This document shows positions 2,637 to 47,382 of a stretch of 48,626 nt of DNA, one piece after another. How positions within the stretch are numbered: position 1 is the first letter of the stretch; every line of letters begins with the position of its first letter. The stretch is from a virus. The notes under the pieces were generated by a model. The model was not told where the DNA came from. It saw only the letters and a list, made by a program, of their open reading frames with translations, and ran no database searches. A program made the translations under genes and the position numbers. The DNA lies in IMG/VR virus record IMGVR_UViG_3300021368_001018, positions 1-48,626 of that record; one strand, given 5' to 3'.

Positions 2637-3320
2637 ATGGCTGAAACGAATAGACAAAAGATTGAAGGAACCGAGGAACAACACGGTATCAAAATTCAAG
2701 AAAACTCTTTTTTTGATAGAAGACATAAAAGATTAAATATTGATTTATCTCATAGATGTCCGTTAGAATGCTTACGTTGTGGTCGCCAAAGAAGTTTTAC
2801 AAGTAAAGGTCTCAAAGTACCAGGCCGAGATTTAACAATAGAAGAATTTAATAAAATATTAGATTGGTTTCCAAGAATATCTTTTTGTGGCCAATATTCA
2901 GACCCTATACATCACCCACAAATAAACGAATTATTAAAAATCACAAAAGAACGTAATACTAAAGTTGAAGTACATTTAGCTTCATCTTTAAAACCTATGA
3001 AACATTATATAGAGGCCTTTAAGGCAAACCCTAAAGCAAATTGGATATTTGGTATAGATGGCATACCTGAAGAAAGTAATAAGTACAGAGTAAATCAAGA
3101 TGGTAGAAAACTATTTAATATAATGTTAGAAAGTAAAAAGTATTTACAAACTAGACCTTTATGGCAATTTATTATATTCAGTTTTAATGAACATAGTATT
3201 GATGAATGTATGAAAATGGCCAAAGATAATGATGTTGATTTTATATTAGTTAACAGTGCAAGATGGACAGATGATGACGATTGGTTAATGCCAAAAACTA
3301 GGAGAACAATGAATGACTAA
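2637..3320 (+). CDS. Radical SAM enzyme, core domain of a split pair
   Basis: This 227-residue protein carries the radical SAM cluster motif CPLECLRC (Cys41, Cys45, Cys48) after the first beta-strand LNIDLSHR. A [4Fe-4S] cluster bound there cleaves S-adenosylmethionine to a 5'-deoxyadenosyl radical. The rest has the expected partial TIM-barrel segments (ISFCGQYSDPIHHP, WIFGIDGI, WQFIIFSFNEHS, DFILVNS), but the chain stops where a SPASM or twitch auxiliary domain would start. That domain is found in the next gene, which overlaps by eight bases, so the two products probably form one enzyme. A paralogous pair exists on the minus strand at 32332-33322. The substrate is unknown. Confidence 0.88.
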   Translation: MAETNRQKIEGTEEQHGIKIQENSFFDRRHKRLNIDLSHRCPLECLRCGRQRSFTSKGLKVPGRDLTIEEFNKILDWFPRISFCGQYSDPIHHPQINELLKITKERNTKVEVHLASSLKPMKHYIEAFKANPKANWIFGIDGIPEESNKYRVNQDGRKLFNIMLESKKYLQTRPLWQFIIFSFNEHSIDECMKMAKDNDVDFILVNSARWTDDDDWLMPKTRRTMND

Positions 3321-24639: not shown

Positions 24640-25926
24640 TTAATAGTTCGTTTCTCTCTTAGCTTTTAAATAATGTTCTTCTAACTCCGGATGTAGTTCA
24701 AACAAGTCGTGGCCTTCTCTTTTACTAAAACCATTTTTATCTAAATCTTGACAATACTCAATAGTCTTAACAAATTCTTCCAAGTCTTGTTCTTTGTCTA
24801 GTGCCTTTAGAATATTAGGATAACCTTTGTATAGTGGTTTTAGTTTTTCCTTAATTTCTTTAGGCAAATTCTTTACTTGTAATATTCTTGGGTGTTCAAT
24901 AATATAAAACGTATGTTGTATACCCATTTCTTTTAACATTGCAATTAACTTATAGTTTTCTAATACAGATAAGAAAGATATTACAGAGTGAACATTAACT
25001 CTTGCATTTCTTCTTGATCTCATTAACTTCATATTTTCTACAAGTTGATTCCAATCAGATTTCTTTCTAATGTAATCATTATATTTACCATAACTGTCTA
25101 TAGATATTTTCATAACAAATTCTTTGAAGTGTGGGAAGTAATCTCTAAAATTATATCCTTCCATATCAAATACAGATAAATTTGTTTTGTATATCAAATC
25201 TATACCTTTTGAATAACCTGTTGCTACTAATTTGTCTAATAGTTTATAATGATTTACCATAACTAAAGGTTCGCCACCAATTAGTTTGATTGATCTAGTA
25301 TACTTTGCTACAGAGGCGATATCATCTAGATACTTTTCATCATCATGTTTCATAGTATTCATTCTTTCGCCATCTTTAGGATCTAAATCTGGATCGTATA
25401 CTTTTGATAATTTTTTTAATGATAGAGTTCTAGTGTTAGCACTTCTTGGTGTACACATATAACAATCTAGATTACAAGCATTACCAAACATTTTCATTTT
25501 AATGTCTAGTATTCTTTCGTCAAAATCTTTTATATCTCCTTCATCTATGAATTTTTGAACAGCTCTTAATAGTTCTGGTACTTTACTATCAAATGTACCT
25601 GCTAGTATTTGTTCAGTATATTTTTGTCTATCTGAACGACCATATTTTTGTTCTTGTTTCCAACAACCTGTACAATGATGTCTAAAGAATTTAGGATCCC
25701 AATCTTCTTTTAACATTTCTTTTCTTAATCTGTTTTGATATTCGGAAGTATACCATTCTTTGATAGTTGTATCTTCCATATTGTGGCCAGTTCTTGCTAG
25801 TGCGTCATAGCAAGGTGCATATCTACCACTTAAACTAGAGAATACGTGTGTGAAAGGTAAAGGACAGAACCATAATTTTTTATCCTTTAACTTTTGTTCA
25901 AATTTTTTTTTCTGTTCTTCATTCAT
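24640..25926 (-). CDS. Twitch/SPASM-type radical SAM enzyme
   Basis: 428 residues. The radical SAM motif CNLDCYMC is at 151-158 (Cys151, Cys155, Cys158), unusually far from the N-terminus, and IKLIGGEPLVM and the VMKISIDSYG strand follow as expected for the barrel. The first 90 residues hold Cys21 and Cys39 (FCPLPFTHV and YAPCYDA) and Cys85/Cys88 (HCTGC), an auxiliary cluster domain placed before the catalytic core. This domain order is found in a marine-phage group annotated as twitch domain-containing radical SAM proteins. The substrate is unknown; close relatives often sit next to glycan genes. It ends ten bases before the PP-loop gene. A GATAAATA (25933-25940) upstream could be a weak late promoter. 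Confidence 0.85.
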   Translation of the reverse strand: MNEEQKKKFEQKLKDKKLWFCPLPFTHVFSSLSGRYAPCYDALARTGHNMEDTTIKEWYTSEYQNRLRKEMLKEDWDPKFFRHHCTGCWKQEQKYGRSDRQKYTEQILAGTFDSKVPELLRAVQKFIDEGDIKDFDERILDIKMKMFGNACNLDCYMCTPRSANTRTLSLKKLSKVYDPDLDPKDGERMNTMKHDDEKYLDDIASVAKYTRSIKLIGGEPLVMVNHYKLLDKLVATGYSKGIDLIYKTNLSVFDMEGYNFRDYFPHFKEFVMKISIDSYGKYNDYIRKKSDWNQLVENMKLMRSRRNARVNVHSVISFLSVLENYKLIAMLKEMGIQHTFYIIEHPRILQVKNLPKEIKEKLKPLYKGYPNILKALDKEQDLEEFVKTIEYCQDLDKNGFSKREGHDLFELHPELEEHYLKAKRETNY

Positions 25927-29782: not shown

Positions 29783-30124
29783 TTATAGTCCTAACAAACC
29801 TCTAATCTCTGGATCAATCATGTCTCTTGTCCATTGAGGTGTCATCGTGACTCTTACATTGCATTTTAGTCCTGGAATACTTTCAACATTCATCTTTACA
29901 TTGTTTACTATTTGATCTGCCGCCGGACAAAAGGCAGACGTTAAACTCATTAAAACAAACACGTGTCTTGCTTCAGTTACCTTAACATCATATATTAGAC
30001 CAAGTGTGTATATATCTGTAGAGATTTCAGGATCGTATACTTCTTTTAGTACCTCTGTAATCTTATTAATATATTCTAACCTAGTTTCTTGATGGTCTGT
30101 TATATCGCTCAAATCTGTTTTCAT
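29783..30124 (-). CDS. SufT/MIP18-like Fe-S assembly protein (DUF59)
   Basis: 113 residues of the DUF59 family. VYDPEISTDIYTLGLIYDVK (29-48) has the DPEIxxxIxxLGLI signature, LTSAFCPAADQI (61-72) has the conserved Cys66 and the C-terminal VRVTMTPQWTRDMI closes the fold. Members such as SufT and PaaD help to place Fe-S clusters in target enzymes. It overlaps the downstream end of the radical SAM gene at 30124, whose maturation is a reasonable client; that is inference. The window also has an IscA-type carrier (2296), so the phage carries two separate Fe-S delivery factors. Cytoplasmic, no membrane segment. Confidence 0.88.
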   Translation of the reverse strand: MKTDLSDITDHQETRLEYINKITEVLKEVYDPEISTDIYTLGLIYDVKVTEARHVFVLMSLTSAFCPAADQIVNNVKMNVESIPGLKCNVRVTMTPQWTRDMIDPEIRGLLGL

Positions 30125-30963
30125 TATACATTCAATATATTACTATACTTCTCAATAGGAAAATGTCCTTTCGGTTGTACATACTCTTTACATGTCACAC
30201 AATACTTTTCGTATTTAAATAACTGAAAGTTCATCATCTTATCAATATTTTCTTTTGTCATAGGAAAAGACCTAGACAATTCAGTGTTGTTTGCAAATTT
30301 TTTACTACAGTGTACTATATGTCTTTTTTCAAAGTCAATAACAGGTACCATAGGAAAAGCGGCACACATTTTACGATCTATTTCAGCCGCTTGTTCGTGT
30401 ACTGCTAACACATCACCTTTTGTTGGTGTTCTACCATTGAACGCCTTAAACATGGTGTTTTTGTGATCTAATTTCTTTTTAAAATCTGGATAGTTTTCTA
30501 CGTATTTAAAGTAATTAGGTGTTTTAAGTACTACATTGTAGTTGTTCATTTCGTTTTCTCCGAAATAATCATAATTACCTAGTTTTTTAATTTTGTCTGG
30601 ATAAAAATCTAATGTCAAGTGTTCTACATATAAGATTTCTGGATCTTCCAATATTTCAGGATATCTTTTTCTTACAAAAGAGTTAGATAATACTGAACAT
30701 ATAAAATTAGGATATTCTTTTATCATTGCAATAACTTCACGTAGATTTTTAATTAAGCCTGGTTCACCACCAAGTAAACATATTCTAACTTTATATTTAC
30801 TTAATGCGTTTAATGTTTCTCTTAAAAAATCTAAATCTACTGTTAAGTTTCTCATTTCTAGAGTATAGCTTGTACAATAGTGACAGTCTTTATTACAAGA
30901 CATTGATAAAAAGAAATCTATTGCTAAATAGTTTTTTTGTACGTATGTTAAATCAAATTTCAT
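30124..30963 (-). CDS. Radical SAM enzyme
   Basis: 279 residues. CNKDCHYC (23-30) is the CxxxCxxC motif that binds the catalytic [4Fe-4S] cluster, and VRICLLGGEPGLI (about 54-66) is the GGEP SAM-binding motif. At the C-terminus Cys in HIVHCSKKFAN and the pair YCVTCKEYVQ suggest a small auxiliary cluster domain or a twitch-like extension. It shares one base with the downstream DUF59 gene and overlaps the upstream hypothetical gene by four, so the enzyme and a likely Fe-S delivery factor are coupled. The substrate is unknown. The glycan context (aminotransferase two genes upstream) favours a sugar or an amino-sugar. Confidence 0.85.
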   Translation of the reverse strand: MKFDLTYVQKNYLAIDFFLSMSCNKDCHYCTSYTLEMRNLTVDLDFLRETLNALSKYKVRICLLGGEPGLIKNLREVIAMIKEYPNFICSVLSNSFVRKRYPEILEDPEILYVEHLTLDFYPDKIKKLGNYDYFGENEMNNYNVVLKTPNYFKYVENYPDFKKKLDHKNTMFKAFNGRTPTKGDVLAVHEQAAEIDRKMCAAFPMVPVIDFEKRHIVHCSKKFANNTELSRSFPMTKENIDKMMNFQLFKYEKYCVTCKEYVQPKGHFPIEKYSNILNV

Positions 30964-35091: not shown

Positions 35092-35553
35092 ATGAAAACA
35101 TATCAATACGATCTAGAAAAAATTAAACAAGAGTTATCAACGCTGCCTGAATATAAGAAACAGTTATACTTACAAGGGTATTCAAAAGATATGAATCCTG
35201 AAGAAGGAGCTGGCGATGGCTATGCTATAGATAGCGTAGAACACACTTATAATATACCTCTTTTTGATATACCTTACATTAATAGTATAATGCAAGAACA
35301 TAAACTTACTAGAACGAGATTGATGAGAATGAAACCAAAATCATGCTATCTATGGCACAATGACTTAACAAAGAGATTACATATACCAATTGAAACACAT
35401 GAACATTGTTTTTTGATATTAGATAATGATAGATTTCATATACCAGCCACAGGTGAAGCATATGTGATAGATACTACAAAAAAACATACGGCGTTAAATT
35501 GTTCAACAATAAATCGTGTTCATATTGTTGGAGGTTTGCCAAATGGAGAATAG
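35092..35553 (+). CDS. 2OG-Fe(II) oxygenase, aspartyl/prolyl hydroxylase type
   Basis: 153 residues from the ATG at 35092. HND at 89-91 (HxD), the basic stretch RLHIPIETHEHC (95-106), His132 in KKHTALN and Arg142 in NRVHIVG make up the Fe(II) and 2-oxoglutarate set of the Asp/Asn beta-hydroxylase family, which also includes L-proline hydroxylases. It differs in motif spacing from the oxygenase at 938, so the phage has two unrelated subfamily members. The substrate could be a free amino acid, a side chain or a biosynthetic intermediate. It is followed by a radical SAM gene that overlaps its end by 11 bases. The Shine-Dalgarno is weak. Confidence 0.82.
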   Translation: MKTYQYDLEKIKQELSTLPEYKKQLYLQGYSKDMNPEEGAGDGYAIDSVEHTYNIPLFDIPYINSIMQEHKLTRTRLMRMKPKSCYLWHNDLTKRLHIPIETHEHCFLILDNDRFHIPATGEAYVIDTTKKHTALNCSTINRVHIVGGLPNGE

Positions 35554-36895
35554 ATTTCCTACGGCCGATGAAAGATGGCCTAGAGCAGGAGAAGTTATCA
35601 AAGAAGATATACTTTATGACGCCGTTATTACATCACTACCAGGCATGGACAAAAGTAAACCTGCACCTGGTCCTTCTTTTCTAAAAGGTTATCTAGAACC
35701 ATTAGGTTTCAAAATTAAAGTTGTTGACGGTCATATGTATGACACGTTAGATAATATAGAAAAAGAAATAAACAAATACAATTTTAGATGGTTAGGTATA
35801 TCAGTATTTTCTTTTATGCAAAAAGAAGATGGTTTAAATCTAGGTAAAAGATTTGAAAATGTATTTTATGGTGGTTCGGGTGTTGATATTAAATGGCCAA
35901 CTCCTTATTACATAGTAGGAGAAGGAGAATATGCTTTACGTGAGTTCTTAAATGGCAACTTTGATTATCCAGGTATCAACGGAAAATTACCAGTACAGAT
36001 AGAGAACATAGAAGACTTACCACCACCAGACTATTCAGACGTAATACAACATCAAAAATATAGAAAGTTTGTAATATCAGGATCAAGAGGTTGTGTTAGA
36101 AATTGTACCTTTTGTGATGTTGCAAGTATATGGCCTAAATTTAGATGGAAGACAGGTAAGAAAATCGCTGATGAAATGCACCAAGTATCTGAACAAACAG
36201 GCACAAAGAAAATACACTTTTCAGATTCATTAATCAATGGCTCTATGAAACATTTTAGAGATTTATGTAGAGAATTAGCAAGTAGGCCTAAAAAGATTAA
36301 ATGGGAGGCACAGTTTATTGTAAGAGATAAAAAGACTTTCTCACAAGAAGACTTTGACAATCTAGCAAACTCTGGTTGCAATGGACTAGAAATGGGTATA
36401 GAAGCAGGTAATGAGGAAGTTAGAGACCATATGAGAAAGAAATTTAGTAATGAAGATATAAAATATTTTGTGGAAAATCTCGGAAAGCGGAATATAACTA
36501 TGAAGTTCTTACTGATTGTCGGTTATCCTACGGAAACGGAAGAAATGTTTGAAGATACTCTGCAACTATTAAGAGATTATGCCAAGTATTCTCATTTAAT
36601 TAGTATATCGCACCACGTGATGATGACTTTTAAAAATACTCCATTAGATTTTGATCATAGAGAGTTATTTGATAGTGAGTTTGGATTTAAATGGAAAAAT
36701 GAAAACTCTGATTTTGATATACGATTTGAAAGATTTATAAAAGTATATGAATTGGGAGTTAAACTAGGTTATCAATTTCAAGCACACTGTTTAGAAAAAA
36801 TAGAAAGATATAAATCTGATAAACTTAATGAAGATAGAAAGTCAATAGGATTTGTACACCCTAAAGATAAGAATAAATTACACGTACAATCTTAA
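35543..36895 (+). CDS. Radical SAM enzyme with B12-binding-like N-terminal domain
   Basis: 450 residues from the ATG at 35543, with GGAGG (35530-35534) eight bases upstream. The first 160 residues form a Rossmann-like domain (YDAVITSLPGMDKSKPAPGP then LKGYLEPLGFKIKVVDGH) as in BchE/MiaB-type cobalamin-binding radical SAM proteins; the His-box DxHxxG that anchors cobalamin is not visible, so B12 binding is uncertain. SRGCVRNCTFC (181-191) has the CxxxCxxC motif (Cys184, Cys188, Cys191), then FSDSLINGS, GLEMGIEAGNEEVRDHMRKK and LLIVGYPTETEEMFEDTLQL complete the barrel. The gene is convergent with the TonB receptor gene, with interleaved stops. Confidence 0.85.
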   Translation: MENRFPTADERWPRAGEVIKEDILYDAVITSLPGMDKSKPAPGPSFLKGYLEPLGFKIKVVDGHMYDTLDNIEKEINKYNFRWLGISVFSFMQKEDGLNLGKRFENVFYGGSGVDIKWPTPYYIVGEGEYALREFLNGNFDYPGINGKLPVQIENIEDLPPPDYSDVIQHQKYRKFVISGSRGCVRNCTFCDVASIWPKFRWKTGKKIADEMHQVSEQTGTKKIHFSDSLINGSMKHFRDLCRELASRPKKIKWEAQFIVRDKKTFSQEDFDNLANSGCNGLEMGIEAGNEEVRDHMRKKFSNEDIKYFVENLGKRNITMKFLLIVGYPTETEEMFEDTLQLLRDYAKYSHLISISHHVMMTFKNTPLDFDHRELFDSEFGFKWKNENSDFDIRFERFIKVYELGVKLGYQFQAHCLEKIERYKSDKLNEDRKSIGFVHPKDKNKLHVQS

Positions 36896-38484
36896 AAAGA
36901 TTTATTAAATCCTAAAGTAAACTTTCTTCCTTCTTGATTAAACCCATGAGGTGATTCATAGTTTTCATCTAATACATTTGTTAGACTAATACCAAAGTCT
37001 ATGCCATAGTAATTATATCCAAGATTTAAATCTAATAGGTGTGTTTCAGGCATTGATATAGTTGACCAATTAGAATTGTGTACATCTAAATGTTTGCCTT
37101 TATATTTGTAATTGGTAGTTATAGAAAAATTATTTTCTAATTCTTTCGTATGCATAAAGCCAAGAGACCAATTAGGCCTTCTTAAATTTACACTATCGTT
37201 TGTTTTACTGTTTAAATGACTAACAAAAAATTTAGAGTTCTCTTGTTTAAAACTAAACTCTATACCATCAGAATTTAAATTACCAATATCATTTTTAAAT
37301 ATAGTTGTTGTAAAGTTATTTTTAGTTAGTGTTAGTTCTTGTGATTCACCATACTCAATATCTGTCCAAGTAGTTTCATCTTTATAACTTGTTGATGTAC
37401 TACCACTTATACTTAAACCATCTTCTATTTCTTTAAAGAAGCCTAATTTATATGTTTCGTGTTCTTCATCAATTCTATGATGATATGAAAATATATTGTG
37501 TGAAAAATTAAAGAAGTATCCTAAATTATGATGTTGACCTGTTAATGATTCATTATGTTTGTAATCAAAACCAAATCCATATTTTTGTTTTTGATGTGTG
37601 CCTCTTATAGTGTAGTTTTCACTTTCATAGTGAGAGTTATCATAATCTCTATCATATTCATGTGTATGAAAAGTTAAACTGTTATTTAAATAATCAACAC
37701 CTGTTTGTAAAGCAAAGAAAGTATTATCTGCCCATTTTCCGTCTTGTATAGAAACATTATGGCCGTCTAAATCTGTAAGTGTGTTTCTTGCAAACCAAGT
37801 TGTTCGCCAATGTACAAGATCGTACCACTTACTTACATTAACACCTATTGTTTTATTATTAGTACCATCTTTCTCGTCAGCACCTGATAAAGCAGATACA
37901 TTTTCTGATTTGTGTTGACCTGCTGAAACAGATATATCAAAATCATTTAATCTAGTATAATAATTACCATTAATAGTACTATCATTACCATTACCAGATA
38001 AACTTAATCTTTTATCATAATCTACAGTTGTTCTAAAGTTGATTGCACCACCAACGGCGTCTGCTCCCCAATGAGCACCTTGTGACCCTTTATATACATC
38101 TACTTGTACAACATTGAACATAAAGTCTTGACCAACATCGTGGGCACCTGTGGGTGTAGAGAAGTCATTGATAGGTATGCCGTTCAATAAAACTAATGTG
38201 TGATTAGAGTTTGTACCTCTTAAAAACAAAGATGATTGTTGACCTGTTGGACCTGATTGGGTTACGTCTAGGCCTTGAATATGATTTAATACTTTAGGTA
38301 GGTCTATGAGATTGTGTTTTTCTATTTCCGATTTTGTTATTGTATATGTGGGTGTTATCTTATCTCCTAGTGCATTTGAATTGTTTATATTTGGATATAT
38401 GGTTACACAAGGAACATCGTCTTCCCAATTACACGCATAGGCATTGGAAATCAATAACAAAAGTATAACAAAGACTCTCAGCAT
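36892..38484 (-). CDS. TonB-dependent outer-membrane receptor, BtuB-like
   Basis: 530 residues from the ATG at 38484. The N-terminus MLRVFVILLLLISNAYA is a signal peptide (cleavage after Ala17). Residues 42-152 are the plug domain, with SSLFLRGTNSNHTLVLLNGI and YKGSQGAHWGADAVGGAIN, which correspond closely to the E. coli BtuB plug. The remainder (153-530) is a beta-barrel of alternating hydrophobic and polar segments, ending in EGRKFTLGFNKSF with the C-terminal Phe needed for outer-membrane assembly. The barrel of about 378 residues is shorter than BtuB's (about 460). VPCVTIYPN (24-32) may be the TonB box. It would import cobalamin or another chelate, or act in superinfection exclusion. No clear ribosome-binding site precedes the ATG. 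Confidence 0.88.
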   Translation of the reverse strand: MLRVFVILLLLISNAYACNWEDDVPCVTIYPNINNSNALGDKITPTYTITKSEIEKHNLIDLPKVLNHIQGLDVTQSGPTGQQSSLFLRGTNSNHTLVLLNGIPINDFSTPTGAHDVGQDFMFNVVQVDVYKGSQGAHWGADAVGGAINFRTTVDYDKRLSLSGNGNDSTINGNYYTRLNDFDISVSAGQHKSENVSALSGADEKDGTNNKTIGVNVSKWYDLVHWRTTWFARNTLTDLDGHNVSIQDGKWADNTFFALQTGVDYLNNSLTFHTHEYDRDYDNSHYESENYTIRGTHQKQKYGFGFDYKHNESLTGQHHNLGYFFNFSHNIFSYHHRIDEEHETYKLGFFKEIEDGLSISGSTSTSYKDETTWTDIEYGESQELTLTKNNFTTTIFKNDIGNLNSDGIEFSFKQENSKFFVSHLNSKTNDSVNLRRPNWSLGFMHTKELENNFSITTNYKYKGKHLDVHNSNWSTISMPETHLLDLNLGYNYYGIDFGISLTNVLDENYESPHGFNQEGRKFTLGFNKSF

Positions 38485-38545: not shown

Positions 38546-38896
38546 ATGGCGGGCATAGCAAACTTAACAATAGATCAAGGATCCAATTTTACTTACGACC
38601 TAGAAGTCACTAACTCTGACGGAACGGCGTTTGATCTTACTGGATTTACAATGGTTGCAAAAGCAGCTCAAGGTTATGCAACTACTTACCCTAGAGTATT
38701 ATTTACTAGTACATGTACAAGTGACATGGCCGTTCAAGGTGTTGTGACTATCAGTTTAACTGCTGATCAAACAAAAGCTATGAAAGCTGGTCGTTGGGTT
38801 TTTGATGTTGTTGCAACTCACACTGATAGTACGGTTACTCGTTTATTAGAGGGTATCGCAATTGTCACACCGTCTGTAGTAAAAGCCTTTACTTAA
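38546..38896 (+). CDS. Small virion structural protein (marine phage family)
   Basis: 116 residues from the ATG at 38546; an upstream extension into the receptor gene region has no ribosome-binding site. MAGIANLTIDQGSNFTYDLE followed by AFDLTGFTMVAKAA is a beta-rich domain I associate with small structural proteins of marine T4-like phages. Further strands VVTISLTADQTKAMKAGRWV and TRLLEGIAIVTPSV follow, as in Ig-like or neck-fibre domains. No enzymatic motif. Preceded by a late promoter and enclosed by unrelated minus-strand genes, it is the only structural gene between 23.3 and 42.4 kb, which suggests a transposed or modular unit. It converges with the gene at 38889 with an eight-base overlap. 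Confidence 0.7.
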   Translation: MAGIANLTIDQGSNFTYDLEVTNSDGTAFDLTGFTMVAKAAQGYATTYPRVLFTSTCTSDMAVQGVVTISLTADQTKAMKAGRWVFDVVATHTDSTVTRLLEGIAIVTPSVVKAFT

Positions 38897-42425: not shown

Positions 42426-44255
42426 ATGCCGGTAATTAAGAATGCAGGTGTTCGTGTCGGCCTAGGAAGAATAGGTTACACAGGATCAGCAGGACCACAA
42501 GGTTTTACAGGATCAAAAGGGGATAAAGGTGCTGACGGTTCACCAGGAGGTTACGCCGGGTCACAAGGTTTCACTGGTTCACGTGGTGAACGAGGACCAG
42601 CAGACGGCTACACAGGTTCACAAGGTGCCGTAGGTTTTACAGGATCCCTTGGTTATACTGGTTCGTCAGGAACAACAGGATTTACAGGTTCAAAAGGGGA
42701 ACAAGGACCCGCTGGAGGTTTTACAGGTTCAGTTGGTTATACTGGTTCTGCTGGAGCAGGTTATACAGGTTCTAAAGGCGACACAGGTTTTGACGGCTCT
42801 GTAGGATTTACAGGTTCAAAAGGCGATCAAGGTGTAATTGGTTTTTCAGGATCTAAAGGAGACGCAGGTGTTGACGGCTCAGATGGTGCAACTGGTTTTT
42901 CAGGATCAAAAGGTGATCAAGGAGATATTGGTTATACTGGATCTGCCGGTGCTGATGGTTCAGCAGGTGTAGCTGGGTTTACAGGATCACAAGGTCTTGT
43001 TGGTTTTACAGGATCAGCAGGAACAGGATCAGACTCACCATTAGTATTCACAACTTCAGGAGATTATAGAACACTTACAGGATTTTTAGAAAGTGGTTCA
43101 ACAAGCACTATAAGAACAGCAGAGTTTCATAATGACTTATTAAGATTAACTCTTGCTACATTTACTCCTTCTTTTTCAGCTTCATCAACTCCAAGTTCAT
43201 CATTAAATTGGGATGTTCCTTGTACAGGATTTTCTGTATCAGTAGATAACCCTAGTGATGTCACAAACGATTTTATAAGTTCAGTTTACTCTATCACTCA
43301 AACAAGTGGAAGTGTTAACGGTACTTTATCTAATTATACAGCAGGTAGTTTTTCACAAACACCAGCAGGTGGTGTAGATTGGACTCAATCTTTCACTGTA
43401 GATAATTCAAATTCATATATTAGATCAACATCAACTAATCGTAGTGGTGGCTCAGCAGGCGCAACAGTTAAATTTAATCACAATGACGGCAGTGAATCAG
43501 AATATACAGCTTCTGATACAAGTTTTTCCGTTAACTGGTCAACAGCGTCTATGAGTTTATCTAAAAGTAATGTCAGCGGAAAGACATTCTTAAAAACATA
43601 TTCAAGTACCTCTTACAGTACAAGTGTAAGCGGCCTCAATAGTTCAAGCAATAGTTCACATTCGCTTTCGGCTACTGGAGGTACTTTGAACAATACATCT
43701 GGCAATGGCTATGTTAGTGGAACATTTACGTTCACTACTCCTATTCATAAGGACAATACAGGTACTACTCGTACAGTTAGTAATACTTGTACATTCTCAC
43801 GGCCTGCCAATGTAACCGGTACAGCGTATACTGTAGATCAATCATCTACAACATCCAACGTATCAGCTTCGTTTACATATCCAAGTTTTTGGATTTGGAC
43901 TGCAAGTACAGGAACCCCTCCTACACTTACAGATATAATTGACGATGCTCAGAGTACCGGTTTTCACTCTAACACGAACCAATTGGCCAATCAGACTCAT
44001 GATTTTTCCGTCCAAGCAGTGAACAATACTGATTCTAATCCTCGTGCTTTTTGGTTCGCCGTTAGGGATGCTGCTACGCAGCCAACAACATTTAAAACTG
44101 GTGCAAGTTCAGCTTTATTAAGTGATGTTGCTACAACTGACGGTGGTGTAATTAATTTAATACCATCTTCTCCTCCTTCAGGACTAACAGATGAAGCATA
44201 TCACATATACGGAATTACACTTCAACCAGGTACAACTTATGTGGAGATTAGTTAA
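42426..44255 (+). CDS. Collagen-like fibre protein with large C-terminal head
   Basis: 609 residues. Residues 17-202 are Gly-Xaa-Yaa triplets built from GFTGSKGDQ-type nonapeptides, with few prolines and many Thr, Ser, Lys and Asp, forming a collagen-like triple helix. Residues about 205-609 are a Ser/Thr/Asn-rich beta-domain (FHNDLLRLTLATFTPSFSAS onward, ending TLQPGTTYVEIS), probably the receptor-binding or adhesin part. GGGGGG (42405-42410) lies 15 bases before the ATG and is a poor ribosome-binding site. The segment 43440-44090 uses more CGN and GCN codons than the rest, suggesting a recently exchanged tip. The next gene overlaps by one base. Confidence 0.82.
   Translation: MPVIKNAGVRVGLGRIGYTGSAGPQGFTGSKGDKGADGSPGGYAGSQGFTGSRGERGPADGYTGSQGAVGFTGSLGYTGSSGTTGFTGSKGEQGPAGGFTGSVGYTGSAGAGYTGSKGDTGFDGSVGFTGSKGDQGVIGFSGSKGDAGVDGSDGATGFSGSKGDQGDIGYTGSAGADGSAGVAGFTGSQGLVGFTGSAGTGSDSPLVFTTSGDYRTLTGFLESGSTSTIRTAEFHNDLLRLTLATFTPSFSASSTPSSSLNWDVPCTGFSVSVDNPSDVTNDFISSVYSITQTSGSVNGTLSNYTAGSFSQTPAGGVDWTQSFTVDNSNSYIRSTSTNRSGGSAGATVKFNHNDGSESEYTASDTSFSVNWSTASMSLSKSNVSGKTFLKTYSSTSYSTSVSGLNSSSNSSHSLSATGGTLNNTSGNGYVSGTFTFTTPIHKDNTGTTRTVSNTCTFSRPANVTGTAYTVDQSSTTSNVSASFTYPSFWIWTASTGTPPTLTDIIDDAQSTGFHSNTNQLANQTHDFSVQAVNNTDSNPRAFWFAVRDAATQPTTFKTGASSALLSDVATTDGGVINLIPSSPPSGLTDEAYHIYGITLQPGTTYVEIS
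42474..43032 (+). repeat. Collagen-like 27-base repeat array in the first fibre gene
   Basis: Imperfect nine-residue units GF/YTGSxGxx, each 27 bases, with GGTTTTACAGGATCA-like cores recurring throughout. It encodes residues 17-202. Confidence 0.75.
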
Positions 44256-46306
44256 TGGCTAGTAATTACGACGGATTAACCAGAAACGTATGGCCAGGTA
44301 CATGGAGTACCGGTACTAATTCTCCTATTGTACTTGATACGGAGATTAGAGGTACTTTACATTCTATCACAGGTGTTGGAACAGATACATTAACAAATAT
44401 TCCTGGTGCTAGAATACAAGAAGGTATGTTAGTATATGTTAAGACAACATATACATCGGGATCAACAACATACACAGGCGATAATTATTATACTTACAAA
44501 TTACAAGGTGGCCAGGCTAGAGACGCTGGAACAGGTGCTGTTCCTAATGCAGACGCAAACTGGTCATTGTTTAGTGTATCGGGTGGTTCAGGTTATACAG
44601 GATCAGCAGGTGCAATTGGTTTTACAGGATCAGCAGGTGCCATTGGTTACACAGGTTCTAAAGGAGATTTAGGATATTCAGGATCAAAAGGCGATACAGG
44701 ATTTACAGGAAGTAAAGGCGATCAAGGTACAACAGGATTTGCAGGATCAAAAGGCGATCAAGGAGATATTGGTTATACAGGTTCAGCAGGCGCTATTGGT
44801 TATACAGGATCAAAAGGTCTTCAAGGCGCTACAGGTTTCACTGGTTCAAAAGGTGATCAAGGTGATCAAGGAGATCCTGGTTATGTTGGTTCAAAAGGCG
44901 ATGTAGGATTTACAGGTTCAAAAGGAGATTTAGGTTATGCCGGCTCAGTAGGGTTTACAGGAAGTAGAGGAGAAGCAGGCGCTGATGGTTCCGATGGTGC
45001 AACAGGATTTACCGGCAGTAAAGGAGATTTAGGTTACACAGGATCAGTTGGCTACACAGGATCAAAAGGCGATACAGGTTTTGATGGATCAAAAGGTGAT
45101 ACAGGATTTGCAGGTTCAAAAGGAGATTTAGGTTATACAGGATCAATTGGTTATAGTGGATCAAAAGGTGATCAAGGTGCTATAGGTTATACAGGTTCGG
45201 AAGGAAATTTAGATGTAAGTTTATCATCAACTCCACCAGGTTCAGCAGGACTTGGCGATGTTTGGATTGATGACGCAACAGGTATTCAATACTTCTACAT
45301 GAACGATGGTAATAGCAACCAATGGGTTGAATTAGCTAACCAAGGTGTAGTAGGATTTACAGGTTCAGTAGGTTATACAGGTTCAAGTAGTGCATTAAGT
45401 AATATTCAAGATGAATCTTATGGTGTAAGTGTCACTGGTAAGATGGCAGTAACCACTATAGACATTGGTACAGGAGGTATTAATGCTTCGGCTGGTGGAA
45501 CTTATGATTTGCAAGGTACAACAATAAACTTTGGTAGTGCAACAATTATGGGTGGTAATGCATTTGATGGTGTTATCAATAATCATTTATGGTCAGGTAG
45601 CACAGCACCAACAAACGGATATGTGTTGAGTTGGAATACAAGTTTATTATCAGGTAGTGGAGATTATGAATGGGTCAACAACCTTGGTTTAAATAATATT
45701 CAAGATGAATCTTATGGTGTAAGTGTCACTGGCAAAATAGCAGTAGGCACTATAGACATTGGGTCAGGAATTAATGCTTCGGCTGGTGCAACTTTTGATT
45801 TACAAGGTACAACAATTAATTTTGGTAGTGCAACCATTATGGGTGGCAATGCATTTGACGGTACTATAAACACTCATCTATGGTCAGGTTCTACACAACC
45901 AACAGATGGATATGTATTAAGTTGGAACACAAGTTTATTATCAGGTAGTGGAGATTATGAATGGATTGTTCCTGGTTCTGCTACGTTTACAGTGACAGCA
46001 AATGGTTCAAGTGCATATAGATTTGATGGTCATGGCTTCCCAGCAGGAACAAGTGGCGATAATCCTACACTTTATCTTAAAAAAGGACATACATATAGTT
46101 TCAAAAATACAACTAGTGGACACCCATTTAGAATACAATCAACAACAGGTACTAGTGGTACAGTATATAGCACAGGCGTGACAAATAATAACGCTTCAGG
46201 ACCTAACGGAGTTGTTGTATTTCACGTTCCTATGGACGCTCCGGCGACATTATACTATCAATGTTCATCGCACGGTTCTATGGTAGGGACAATTACTATA
46301 AGTTAA
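44255..46306 (+). CDS. Collagen-like fibre protein ending in a cupredoxin domain
   Basis: 683 residues. Residues 1-110 are a beta-domain; 113-318 are collagen-like GYTGSKGDx triplets. Then follows GDVWIDDATGIQYFYMNDG, which is also in the gene at 46486. A 90-residue unit occurs twice in tandem (383-473 and 481-570), starting NIQDESYGVSVTGK. The last 108 residues resemble a cupredoxin: KGHTYSFKNTTSGHPFRIQ and YYQCSSHGSM, with His623, Cys670, His673 and Met676 in the place of type 1 copper ligands. The end of the chain is VGTITIS. Similar terminal domains occur in other marine phage fibres. It overlaps the preceding gene by one base. Confidence 0.82.
   Translation: MASNYDGLTRNVWPGTWSTGTNSPIVLDTEIRGTLHSITGVGTDTLTNIPGARIQEGMLVYVKTTYTSGSTTYTGDNYYTYKLQGGQARDAGTGAVPNADANWSLFSVSGGSGYTGSAGAIGFTGSAGAIGYTGSKGDLGYSGSKGDTGFTGSKGDQGTTGFAGSKGDQGDIGYTGSAGAIGYTGSKGLQGATGFTGSKGDQGDQGDPGYVGSKGDVGFTGSKGDLGYAGSVGFTGSRGEAGADGSDGATGFTGSKGDLGYTGSVGYTGSKGDTGFDGSKGDTGFAGSKGDLGYTGSIGYSGSKGDQGAIGYTGSEGNLDVSLSSTPPGSAGLGDVWIDDATGIQYFYMNDGNSNQWVELANQGVVGFTGSVGYTGSSSALSNIQDESYGVSVTGKMAVTTIDIGTGGINASAGGTYDLQGTTINFGSATIMGGNAFDGVINNHLWSGSTAPTNGYVLSWNTSLLSGSGDYEWVNNLGLNNIQDESYGVSVTGKIAVGTIDIGSGINASAGATFDLQGTTINFGSATIMGGNAFDGTINTHLWSGSTQPTDGYVLSWNTSLLSGSGDYEWIVPGSATFTVTANGSSAYRFDGHGFPAGTSGDNPTLYLKKGHTYSFKNTTSGHPFRIQSTTGTSGTVYSTGVTNNNASGPNGVVVFHVPMDAPATLYYQCSSHGSMVGTITIS
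44591..45210 (+). repeat. Collagen-like 27-base repeat array in the second fibre gene
   Basis: About 20 imperfect copies of GY/FTGSKGDx, 27 bases each, with some shorter triplet gaps and one GADGSDGATG insert also found in the first fibre gene. Confidence 0.75.
45401..45964 (+). repeat. Tandem duplication of a 90-codon module
   Basis: 45401-45673 (91 codons) and 45695-45964 (90 codons) encode near-identical units starting NIQDESYGVSVTGK and ending SLLSGSGDYEW, joined by a seven-residue linker. Differences are mainly silent or conservative. Confidence 0.85.
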
Positions 46307-46350
46307 TAAAAAGTTAATAAAAATATAGTATATTTGAAGAAGAAATAACT

Positions 46351-46358
46351 TATAAATA
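46351..46358 (+). promoter_or_regulatory. T4-type late promoter
   Basis: Exact TATAAATA 127 bases before the gene at 46486. The leader would hold GGAGG at 46362-46366 followed by an AT-rich segment and a proper AGGAG at 46473. A 15-codon frame (46360 onward) is the only coding possibility in the leader. Confidence 0.7.
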
Positions 46359-46485
46359 GATGGAGGAAAAAGAAACGAAATACTTTTTTCTTGCAAGAAA
46401 TTTATAAAATGATTATAACGTTAAAATTATGTATTAAGTGAAAGAGTATTATTTAATTAAATAAAACAATTAGGAGAAACACAAA

Positions 46486-47382
46486 ATGGCAATAAACTTT
46501 CCAAATTCGCCATCGTTGAACGACATATACACTCTCGGTACTAGACAGTGGAAATGGAACGGCAACGGTTGGGCGCTACAGCCTTTAACAGCAGGTTTCA
46601 CTGGATCAATCGGTTATACCGGTTCTAAAGGTGATATTGGTTATACAGGTTCAAAAGGGGACACAGGTTTAGGTTTTAACATTGCTAAGACTTATACAAG
46701 TGTTGCTAACTTACAAGCAGATACATCTCCATCAGGCATTGCGACTGGTGAATTTGCTATCATTGAAAACGGGTCATTAACTGACTCAGAAAATTCTAGA
46801 TTATACCTATGGAACGGTTCAGCATACTCATTCGTATCTGACCTTTCTGGTACAATCGGTTTCACAGGTTCTAAAGGGGATACTGGTTTCACTGGATCAA
46901 AAGGTGATATTGGTTTCACAGGATCTAAAGGTGATATTGGTTTCACAGGTTCTAAAGGTTTCACAGGTTCTAAAGGGGACACTGGATTCACAGGATCTCT
47001 AGGTTACACTGGATCTAAAGGTGACATTGGTTACACTGGATCTAAAGGTGACATTGGTTACACAGGTTCTAAAGGTGACATTGGTTACACTGGATCTGAA
47101 GGTAATCTTGACATCACAACTTCAGCTTCTCCGCCAACTTCAGGCGTAGGCGAAGGTGATATTTGGGTAGACAACGCAACTGGCGTACAATACTTTTACT
47201 ACAACGATGGTAACAGTGTACAGTGGGTTGAATTAGCTAACCAAGGTGTTGTTGGTTTCACTGGATCAAAAGGTGATCAAGTAGATACTATCGACTCATC
47301 TAACTTTAGTTCAGCAGTGACTTTACTAATTAAAAATAGTTCAGGCACAACTTTAAAAACAATCATAGGTAACGCTTCGTAA
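46486..47382 (+). CDS. Collagen-like fibre protein with shared C-terminal tag
   Basis: 298 residues. INFPNSPSLNDIYTLGTRQW (3-22) followed by KWNGNGWALQP is the attachment module, also present at 48483. Collagen-like repeats GYTGSKGDI occupy residues about 37-63 and 125-206, with a globular insert FNIAKTYTSVANLQADTSPS in between. A GEGDIWVDNATGVQYFYYND segment matches the second fibre gene. The last 21 residues carry LLIKNSSGTTLKTIIG, as in the genes at 12765 and 21504. AGGAG (46473-46477) precedes the ATG. The whole looks like a mosaic of phage-fibre modules; the protein probably forms a thin trimeric fibre. Confidence 0.82.
   Translation: MAINFPNSPSLNDIYTLGTRQWKWNGNGWALQPLTAGFTGSIGYTGSKGDIGYTGSKGDTGLGFNIAKTYTSVANLQADTSPSGIATGEFAIIENGSLTDSENSRLYLWNGSAYSFVSDLSGTIGFTGSKGDTGFTGSKGDIGFTGSKGDIGFTGSKGFTGSKGDTGFTGSLGYTGSKGDIGYTGSKGDIGYTGSKGDIGYTGSEGNLDITTSASPPTSGVGEGDIWVDNATGVQYFYYNDGNSVQWVELANQGVVGFTGSKGDQVDTIDSSNFSSAVTLLIKNSSGTTLKTIIGNAS
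46858..47106 (+). repeat. Collagen-like 27-base repeat array in the third fibre gene
   Basis: The most regular array: nine-residue units GFTGSKGDI/GYTGSKGDI with neighbouring copies nearly identical at the DNA level (for example around 47017-47097), which should promote slippage or recombination. Confidence 0.8.

Follow-up and report, generated by a model that had tools for sequence, protein, structure and literature searches.

A BtuB-like outer-membrane receptor encoded by pelagimyophage-type viruses and its probable role in vitamin B12 import

The stretch of DNA analysed here, referred to as the window, is the entire 48.6-kb IMG/VR virus record IMGVR_UViG_3300021368_001018 (48,626 nucleotides, probably a genome fragment), and it encodes an outer-membrane protein of the TonB-dependent-receptor type that resembles BtuB of E. 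coli. We consider it likely that this protein is the phage version of a receptor for corrinoids (vitamin B12) of the SAR11 type, made in infection for the import of B12 and probably serving radical-SAM enzymes. More broadly, the data suggest that viruses of probable SAR11 hosts carry a B12-type receptor, often behind a B12-sensing RNA, and that infected cells are made to import B12. SAR11 bacteria are among the most abundant in the ocean, and vitamin B12 limits and structures plankton communities; if the reading is true, phages that equip the cell with a B12 receptor, controlled in many relatives by a B12 sensor of their own, would be reprogramming host nutrition in a new way. The findings also bear on whether part of SAR11 imports B12, and on where such a receptor draws its energy if no TonB can be recognised.

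Predicted fold and viral distribution of the receptor

The open reading frame of the receptor runs on the minus strand from an ATG at position 38484 to a stop codon ending at position 36892; an in-frame TTG upstream of the ATG would move the start to 38523. An earlier note on this DNA had described a complete receptor with a signal peptide and a terminal Phe, and this description holds: the frame is intact, the protein ends in ...FNKSF, and the N-terminus is signal-like by inspection. The plug motif quoted in that note, SSLFLRGTNSNHTLVLLNGI, is likewise present. The protein matched Pfam Plug (PF07715) with an E value of 1.8e-18 and 67.4 bits (cut-off 23.9), while the Pfam barrel family had no match in the phage receptor and a match in one SAR11 homologue. 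The best NCBIfam match was the TonB-B12 model (TIGR01779; E 1.1e-28, 100.2 bits).

Structure prediction with AlphaFold2 on an alignment of 27 viral sequences gave a plug and 22 barrel strands (predicted local distance difference test, pLDDT, 76.3; predicted template-modelling score, pTM, 0.78), where the count of 22 takes residues 453-468 and 475-492 as one strand each within residues 159-529; the N-terminal 42 residues of the model are unreliable. An alignment of 18 close relatives yielded a poor model (pLDDT 44), and the 27-row viral alignment was used instead. When the model was compared with the PDB by Foldseek, the top 12 matches were all E. coli BtuB, with template-modelling (TM) scores of about 0.7-0.83, and FepA and others ranked lower. 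Furthermore, a profile of phage and SAR11 sequences gave a nearly full-length alignment with BtuB at E 1e-50, the runner-up being the colicin I receptor at 2e-23. By the predicted model and these searches, the solved structure closest to the window receptor in fold and sequence is that of BtuB, and both the 22-strand barrel and the BtuB-like character anticipated in the earlier note are borne out.

As a mere lead, E204, D206, D240 and D253 of the receptor were picked out by eye as acidic counterparts of the calcium ligands of BtuB, which we take to be D193, D195, D230 and D241. The receptor shares with E. coli BtuB (PDB 1NQH; TIGR01779/NF007926) a 22-strand barrel and a plug in the same order, similar ligand-facing plug loops, which rank among the best-conserved regions in the alignment of relatives, and, in those relatives, control by a cobalamin riboswitch. 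However, the two proteins are only about 20% identical, the receptor has 530 amino acids including the signal peptide whereas mature BtuB has 594, an x-Pro-Cys belonging to a CxW..PC motif stands where BtuB has its Ton box, and the receptor occurs in viruses whose likely host lineage has no detectable TonB. Judged from its sequence, the receptor looks BtuB-like and probably works as BtuB does, yet it lies outside the BtuB equivalog. It is termed TonB-dependent-receptor-type, and not TonB-dependent, because its Ton-box position is non-canonical and any function there is at best putative.

The gp6-like baseplate gene of the window is 70% identical to that of Pelagibacter phage Mosig and 54-55% identical to those of HTVC008M and OM43 phage Melnitz, and the window PstS is 68% identical to Mosig PstS. 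The window virus is therefore of the pelagimyophage type (T4-like), and SAR11 is its likely host. Three scans of viral contigs returned about 74 distinct viral loci with relatives of the receptor at 40-96% identity. Two further, more distant loci, L277 and L279 (30-31% identity to the window receptor), first surfaced in a patterned search for BtuB-type plugs in viral contigs, a kind of pattern that is too strict; phage homologues, for which the earlier note had proposed to look, are thus at hand. Long receptor-bearing contigs include L037 (128.7 kb), L283 (137.6 kb), L046 (165.7 kb) and L289 (172.4 kb). The genes that flank the receptor are conserved inside each of several contexts, across independent metagenomes, and these contexts include T4-like and amidase-bearing phage settings as well as an nrdA/nrdB type and a tRNA type. 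Where it could be computed, the ratio of nonsynonymous to synonymous substitution rates (dN/dS) against the window copy was 0.05-0.23, indicating purifying selection. Because about 75 viral contigs carry the gene in intact form (intactness refers to full-length copies, some others being cut off by contig ends) and it is under purifying selection, it is neither a chance occurrence nor an assembly accident, and its presence in many independent viral contigs excludes the host chimerism about which the earlier note had cautioned.

None of the isolate phages in the searched collection has the receptor, and a search of the phage collection at E 1e-5 with either the window receptor or a SAR11 homologue returned no similar phage sequence; viral relatives were likewise absent from a scan that started from a SAR11 receptor. 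Salmonella and Acinetobacter matches in the phage collection were rejected as phage relatives, since their contigs look bacterial and carry btuB or siderophore receptor genes of the host.

A sister family in SAR11 and its N-terminal signature

A profile scan of genome contigs with the phage alignment detected no relative, and a whole-genome search then gave the SAR11 family. Of 398 Pseudomonadota genomes, one from the SAR11 order matched far better than any other. Membership of SAR11 is defined here by the order label together with a named SAR11 locus used as search centre. A plug is present in 75 of the 297 genomes of the order, at one copy each, and the remaining 222 are without Plug. About 11 close SAR11 homologues, 568-649 amino acids long where complete (L269 is masked), are 29-34% identical over most of their length. 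In a maximum-likelihood tree, the phage clade (support 100/99) and the SAR11 clade (100/97) were sisters joined at 100/99, with L277 and L279 outside. The window receptor is about 93 residues short of the SAR11 homologues and the losses fall mostly in barrel turns or strand ends, in agreement with the shortened loops proposed in the earlier note. The receptor of L289, with 608 amino acids, retains one long loop, and the trimming therefore apparently happened within the phage line.

The SAR11 receptors (L259-L269) have in common with the phage receptor the N-terminal signature and the AdoCbl-II class of riboswitch, in addition to their position as sister clade. They differ in being cellular, in their length and longer loops, including a PSLYELYG..PEKS segment, and in their usual neighbours, DUF6580 and a B12-binding radical-SAM gene. 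No TonB-dependent transporters are listed for cultured P. ubique strains (PMC3400609); despite that listing, a single plug-type receptor (loci L259-L275) was observed in about a quarter of the genomes of the order. In L267 (10745-15380) and L268 (11109-15744), the receptor cassette adjoins an rRNA operon, possibly in a hypervariable island, and this may explain the patchy distribution.

The signature, CxWx(3-7)PC directly after the signal peptide, was found in 25 of 25 phage members and 11 of 11 SAR11 clade members and in 0 of 42 other receptors. No canonical Ton box was found near the mature N-terminus of the receptor, which has x-Pro-Cys-x-x-Ile at the aligned position; the Pro-Cys of the motif aligns with the Leu-Val of the canonical-looking Ton box of L277 (DGALVITIYVP). 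Such canonical-looking Ton boxes are kept in L277 and L279, as they are in other SAR11 receptors. Four findings go beyond the earlier note: the sister family, the CxW..PC motif where a Ton box would stand, the failure to detect TonB in SAR11, and the riboswitches of the relatives.

Cobalamin riboswitches, radical-SAM linkage and the proposed import of B12

Rfam placed the adenosylcobalamin riboswitch AdoCbl-II (RF01689) directly upstream of the receptor in sampled viral loci, at 70-84 bits (gathering score 36.5). With a search model of our own, seeded with four SAR11 and two phage copies, 31 of 76 viral loci were seen to carry AdoCbl-II ahead of the receptor gene, namely 28 of 65 phage loci together with L277, L279 and L289; in L277 and L279 the aptamer lies about 550 nucleotides upstream. 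When 20 viral records were searched whole, AdoCbl-II occurred in 8, in a single copy each and always at the receptor. The helices scored 0.525 for covariation, against 0.175 when shuffled (0 of 500), in an alignment that was fitted to the structure. A cobalamin riboswitch was also present at 14 of 17 SAR11 receptor loci (AdoCbl-II at 10, the larger RF00174 at 4 others). Because riboswitches precede both the phage and the SAR11 receptor genes, the import of cobalamin or another corrinoid, one of several roles listed in the earlier note, is strongly, if indirectly, favoured.

A radical-SAM gene lies immediately beside the receptor in about 30 phage loci, and is adjacent or at most five genes away in most phage lineages. 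SAR11-like radical-SAM genes were found near the receptor in L032, L033, L035-L037, L045, L046, L056 and L285-L288, and representatives of these SAR11-like phage neighbours, from several separate contexts, contain both B12-binding and Radical_SAM by Pfam. The B12-binding domains of the phage records sit in open frames of 505-639 amino acids, and those tested with Pfam are radical-SAM proteins. The core of the window radical-SAM neighbour resembles B12-dependent radical-SAM subfamilies of NCBIfam. In SAR11, a radical-SAM gene of the B12-binding family is close to the receptor in 10 of 17 loci, and a DUF6580 membrane protein is beside or near it in 15 of 17 (PF20221 confirmed in sampled members). 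On the T4-like contig L277, riboswitch, DUF6580 and receptor follow one another, and uvsX and gp32-like genes lie alongside. The context of the receptor hints at a function for DUF6580, which, where it stands beside the receptor (L277 5945-6454, L268 10591-11082, L272 9847-10362), is a candidate inner-membrane corrinoid transporter.

According to the import reading, the receptor would be transcribed from a host-type promoter during infection, exported and inserted into the outer membrane, where it would bind cobalamin or a related corrinoid and hand it to the periplasm, and host or phage partners would move the corrinoid onward. A sigma-70-like promoter abuts the start codon of the window receptor; promoter-like sites in the receptor region are no more numerous than expected by chance, and the support for this one is its conservation between loci. 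In relatives, the same promoter is followed by the riboswitch and a Shine-Dalgarno-like sequence, both of which the window lacks, and in L002, the nearest relative of the window, the promoter is kept and the riboswitch and ribosome-binding site are gone. Plentiful adenosylcobalamin would switch off receptor synthesis in the riboswitch-bearing relatives, and the window phage, without a riboswitch, would produce the receptor unconditionally. The imported corrinoid would most likely be used by B12-dependent radical-SAM enzymes, either of the phage, near the receptor, or of the host; SAR11 is without the B12-dependent methionine synthase MetH (PMC12478193), and radical-SAM enzymes are therefore likely corrinoid users.

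Several observations weigh against this reading. The same absence of MetH means that a need of SAR11 for B12 is not obvious. No AdoCbl-II above the gathering score was found anywhere in the window, and the receptor falls short of the BtuB equivalog cut-off (TIGR01779, 599.7 bits) by a wide margin. The earlier note had described a convergent radical-SAM enzyme with a B12-binding-like domain; the convergent gene is present, but Pfam B12-binding (PF02310) was not found in its product. In the nrdA/nrdB-type and tRNA-type contexts there is no radical-SAM gene within the fetched DNA, and, because these phages carry many radical-SAM genes, the linkage of receptor and radical-SAM gene alone is moderate evidence. 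DUF6580 was not found in 19 of 20 viral records searched. As to the energy source, the TonB C-terminal domain was not detected in the SAR11 order (PF03544 in 0 of 297 genomes, TIGR01352 in 0 of 30).

PF13103 exceeded its cut-off in 1 of 117 SAR11-order genomes, which gave no useful TonB candidate, and 29 of 30 SAR11-order genomes have one ExbD/TolR each. Because other SAR11 receptors keep canonical-looking Ton boxes, a divergent TonB missed by the models is quite possible. We tentatively raise the possibility that SAR11 and its phages share a corrinoid uptake by a BtuB-like receptor that dispenses with both a canonical Ton box and any recognisable TonB. Through the invariant CxW..PC, which may be a loop closed by a disulfide, the plug would be linked to another power source or to none; this would form a phage metabolic cassette, often with a riboswitch, that feeds B12-dependent radical-SAM enzymes.

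It is rather unlikely, though deserving of attention, that the receptor supplies B12 for a step other than radical-SAM chemistry, for example in nucleotide or host metabolism. In some lineages it adjoins nrdA/nrdB-like or thyX-like genes with no radical-SAM gene nearby; however, the neighbouring nrdA/nrdB-like genes appear, by size and sequence, to encode a class I ribonucleotide reductase, an enzyme independent of B12, and the phage B12-binding domains lie in frames of radical-SAM size.

TonB-dependent receptors are frequent phage entry points, and the window receptor could serve the control of superinfection, as a decoy or by masking or replacing a host surface receptor, with trimmed loops that deny competitors a landing site and with transport as a secondary matter. 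The parts lost relative to the SAR11 homologues are indeed loops and turns, and in context A, the setting of the window, the receptor gene adjoins tail-fibre-related genes; but the context varies between lineages, so that the tail linkage is not general, and the cobalamin riboswitch at 31 loci links expression to B12 rather than to phage encounter. Moreover, most SAR11 genomes, being without Plug, would have no receptor to replace, and conservation is especially high in the ligand loops of the plug. The masking and exclusion roles raised in the earlier note thus found no positive evidence, and we hold them improbable.

An equally poor prospect is given to the import of a similarly sized ligand other than a corrinoid, for instance heme, a siderophore or a different metal chelate. 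Heme and siderophore receptor models of NCBIfam gave further, weak matches to the window receptor, its cobalamin assignment is itself a prediction, and its own copy has no riboswitch; however, the riboswitches of its viral and SAR11 relatives are cobalamin aptamers, fold and profile searches put BtuB first by a wide margin, and the SAR11 receptor is linked to DUF6580 and B12-binding radical-SAM genes. That the receptor is a non-functional or drifting host gene, or host DNA misbinned as virus, is scarcely credible: the window copy lacks the riboswitch and is about 90-110 amino acids shorter than most SAR11 forms, but full-length copies are intact and under purifying selection, and contigs of 128-172 kb, with phage genes around the receptor in varied settings and flanks conserved across independent metagenomes, contradict it.

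Known phage systems and features of the window

TonB-dependent receptors in phages have precedents. The window receptor belongs to this type by its plug and its fold, and its BtuB-like function is one that we infer. The SusC-type receptor of marine megaphage Mar_Mega_1 is also a phage-encoded TonB-dependent receptor and, in the accessible part of its description (PMC9723777), a proposed auxiliary metabolic gene; it is of a carbohydrate-type family, that part of the text mentions no riboswitch, and the protein (probably BFVD A0A8D9FQQ5) has 805 amino acids and 12% identity to the window receptor. A TonB-dependent receptor of unspecified type was reported in another SAR11 virus, the pelagipodophage Skadi-1, where, unlike here, the authors take it as a hint of the adsorption receptor (PMC10504331; compared by description only). 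The CsgGF pore of pelagimyophages (PMC7029224, PMC9004378) is another outer-membrane channel that viruses of this group encode, but the protein is unrelated to the receptor and no B12 link is reported for it. Searches of a library of open-access papers turned up neither a cobalamin riboswitch in a phage nor a BtuB-like phage receptor, an absence that is not proof. The features of the receptor and its neighbours are collected in Table 1.

Table 1. Positions of the receptor gene, its parts and its neighbours in the window
Feature	Position	Strand	Basis or remark
TonB-dependent-receptor-type outer-membrane protein, 530 amino acids, BtuB-like	36892..38484	-	Open reading frame, translation, Plug model, AlphaFold2, Foldseek
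Signal-peptide-like N-terminus, residues 1-17 (MLRVFVILLLLISNAYA), hydrophobic	38434..38484	-	Inspection of the sequence
Signature CNWEDDVPC, residues 18-26, C-x-W-x(3-7)-P-C	38407..38433	-	Shared without exception by phage and SAR11 members
Plug domain (residues 45-147), whose loops QSGPTGQQSSLFLRG and NDFSTPTGAHD resemble those of BtuB	38044..38352	-	PF07715 match, BtuB alignment
Predicted 22-strand barrel, residues 159-529, turns and loops trimmed	36898..38010	-	AlphaFold2 secondary structure; gaps against SAR11 homologues
Sigma-70-like promoter TTGCCA-N17-TATACT, abutting the receptor start codon	38495..38523	-	10/12 consensus matches, conserved between loci
Radical-SAM protein, 450 amino acids, convergent with the receptor, 4-nucleotide overlap	35543..36895	+	Radical_SAM by Pfam; B12-dependent subfamilies best in NCBIfam
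Aspartyl/asparaginyl hydroxylase-like protein; its gene precedes the radical-SAM gene and is co-oriented with it	35092..35553	+	PF05118; conserved context
Divergent phage gene, tail-fibre-assembly-like	38546..38896	+	phrog_1084, phrog_3304; adjoins the receptor in most context-A loci and is a marker of its phage surroundings

Besides the neighbour of the receptor, radical-SAM genes were seen in the window at 2637-3317, 24643-25926 and 30127-30963, and iron-sulphur assembly genes at 2296-2616 and 29786-30124. An Rfam match to mir-217 in the window was dismissed, being far below the gathering score. In L017 (4634-6346), a near-identical pair of riboswitch and receptor stands at another site, with an nrdA-like gene as neighbour, an arrangement suggestive of a cassette that travels from phage to phage. 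A transfer-messenger RNA of alphaproteobacterial type lies directly upstream of the receptor in L040 (5565-5916), which fits an alphaproteobacterial host. Finally, a collagen-repeat protein and neighbours resembling it, which are probable tail fibres, occupy positions 42426-47382 of the window, where the G+C content is above that of the rest.

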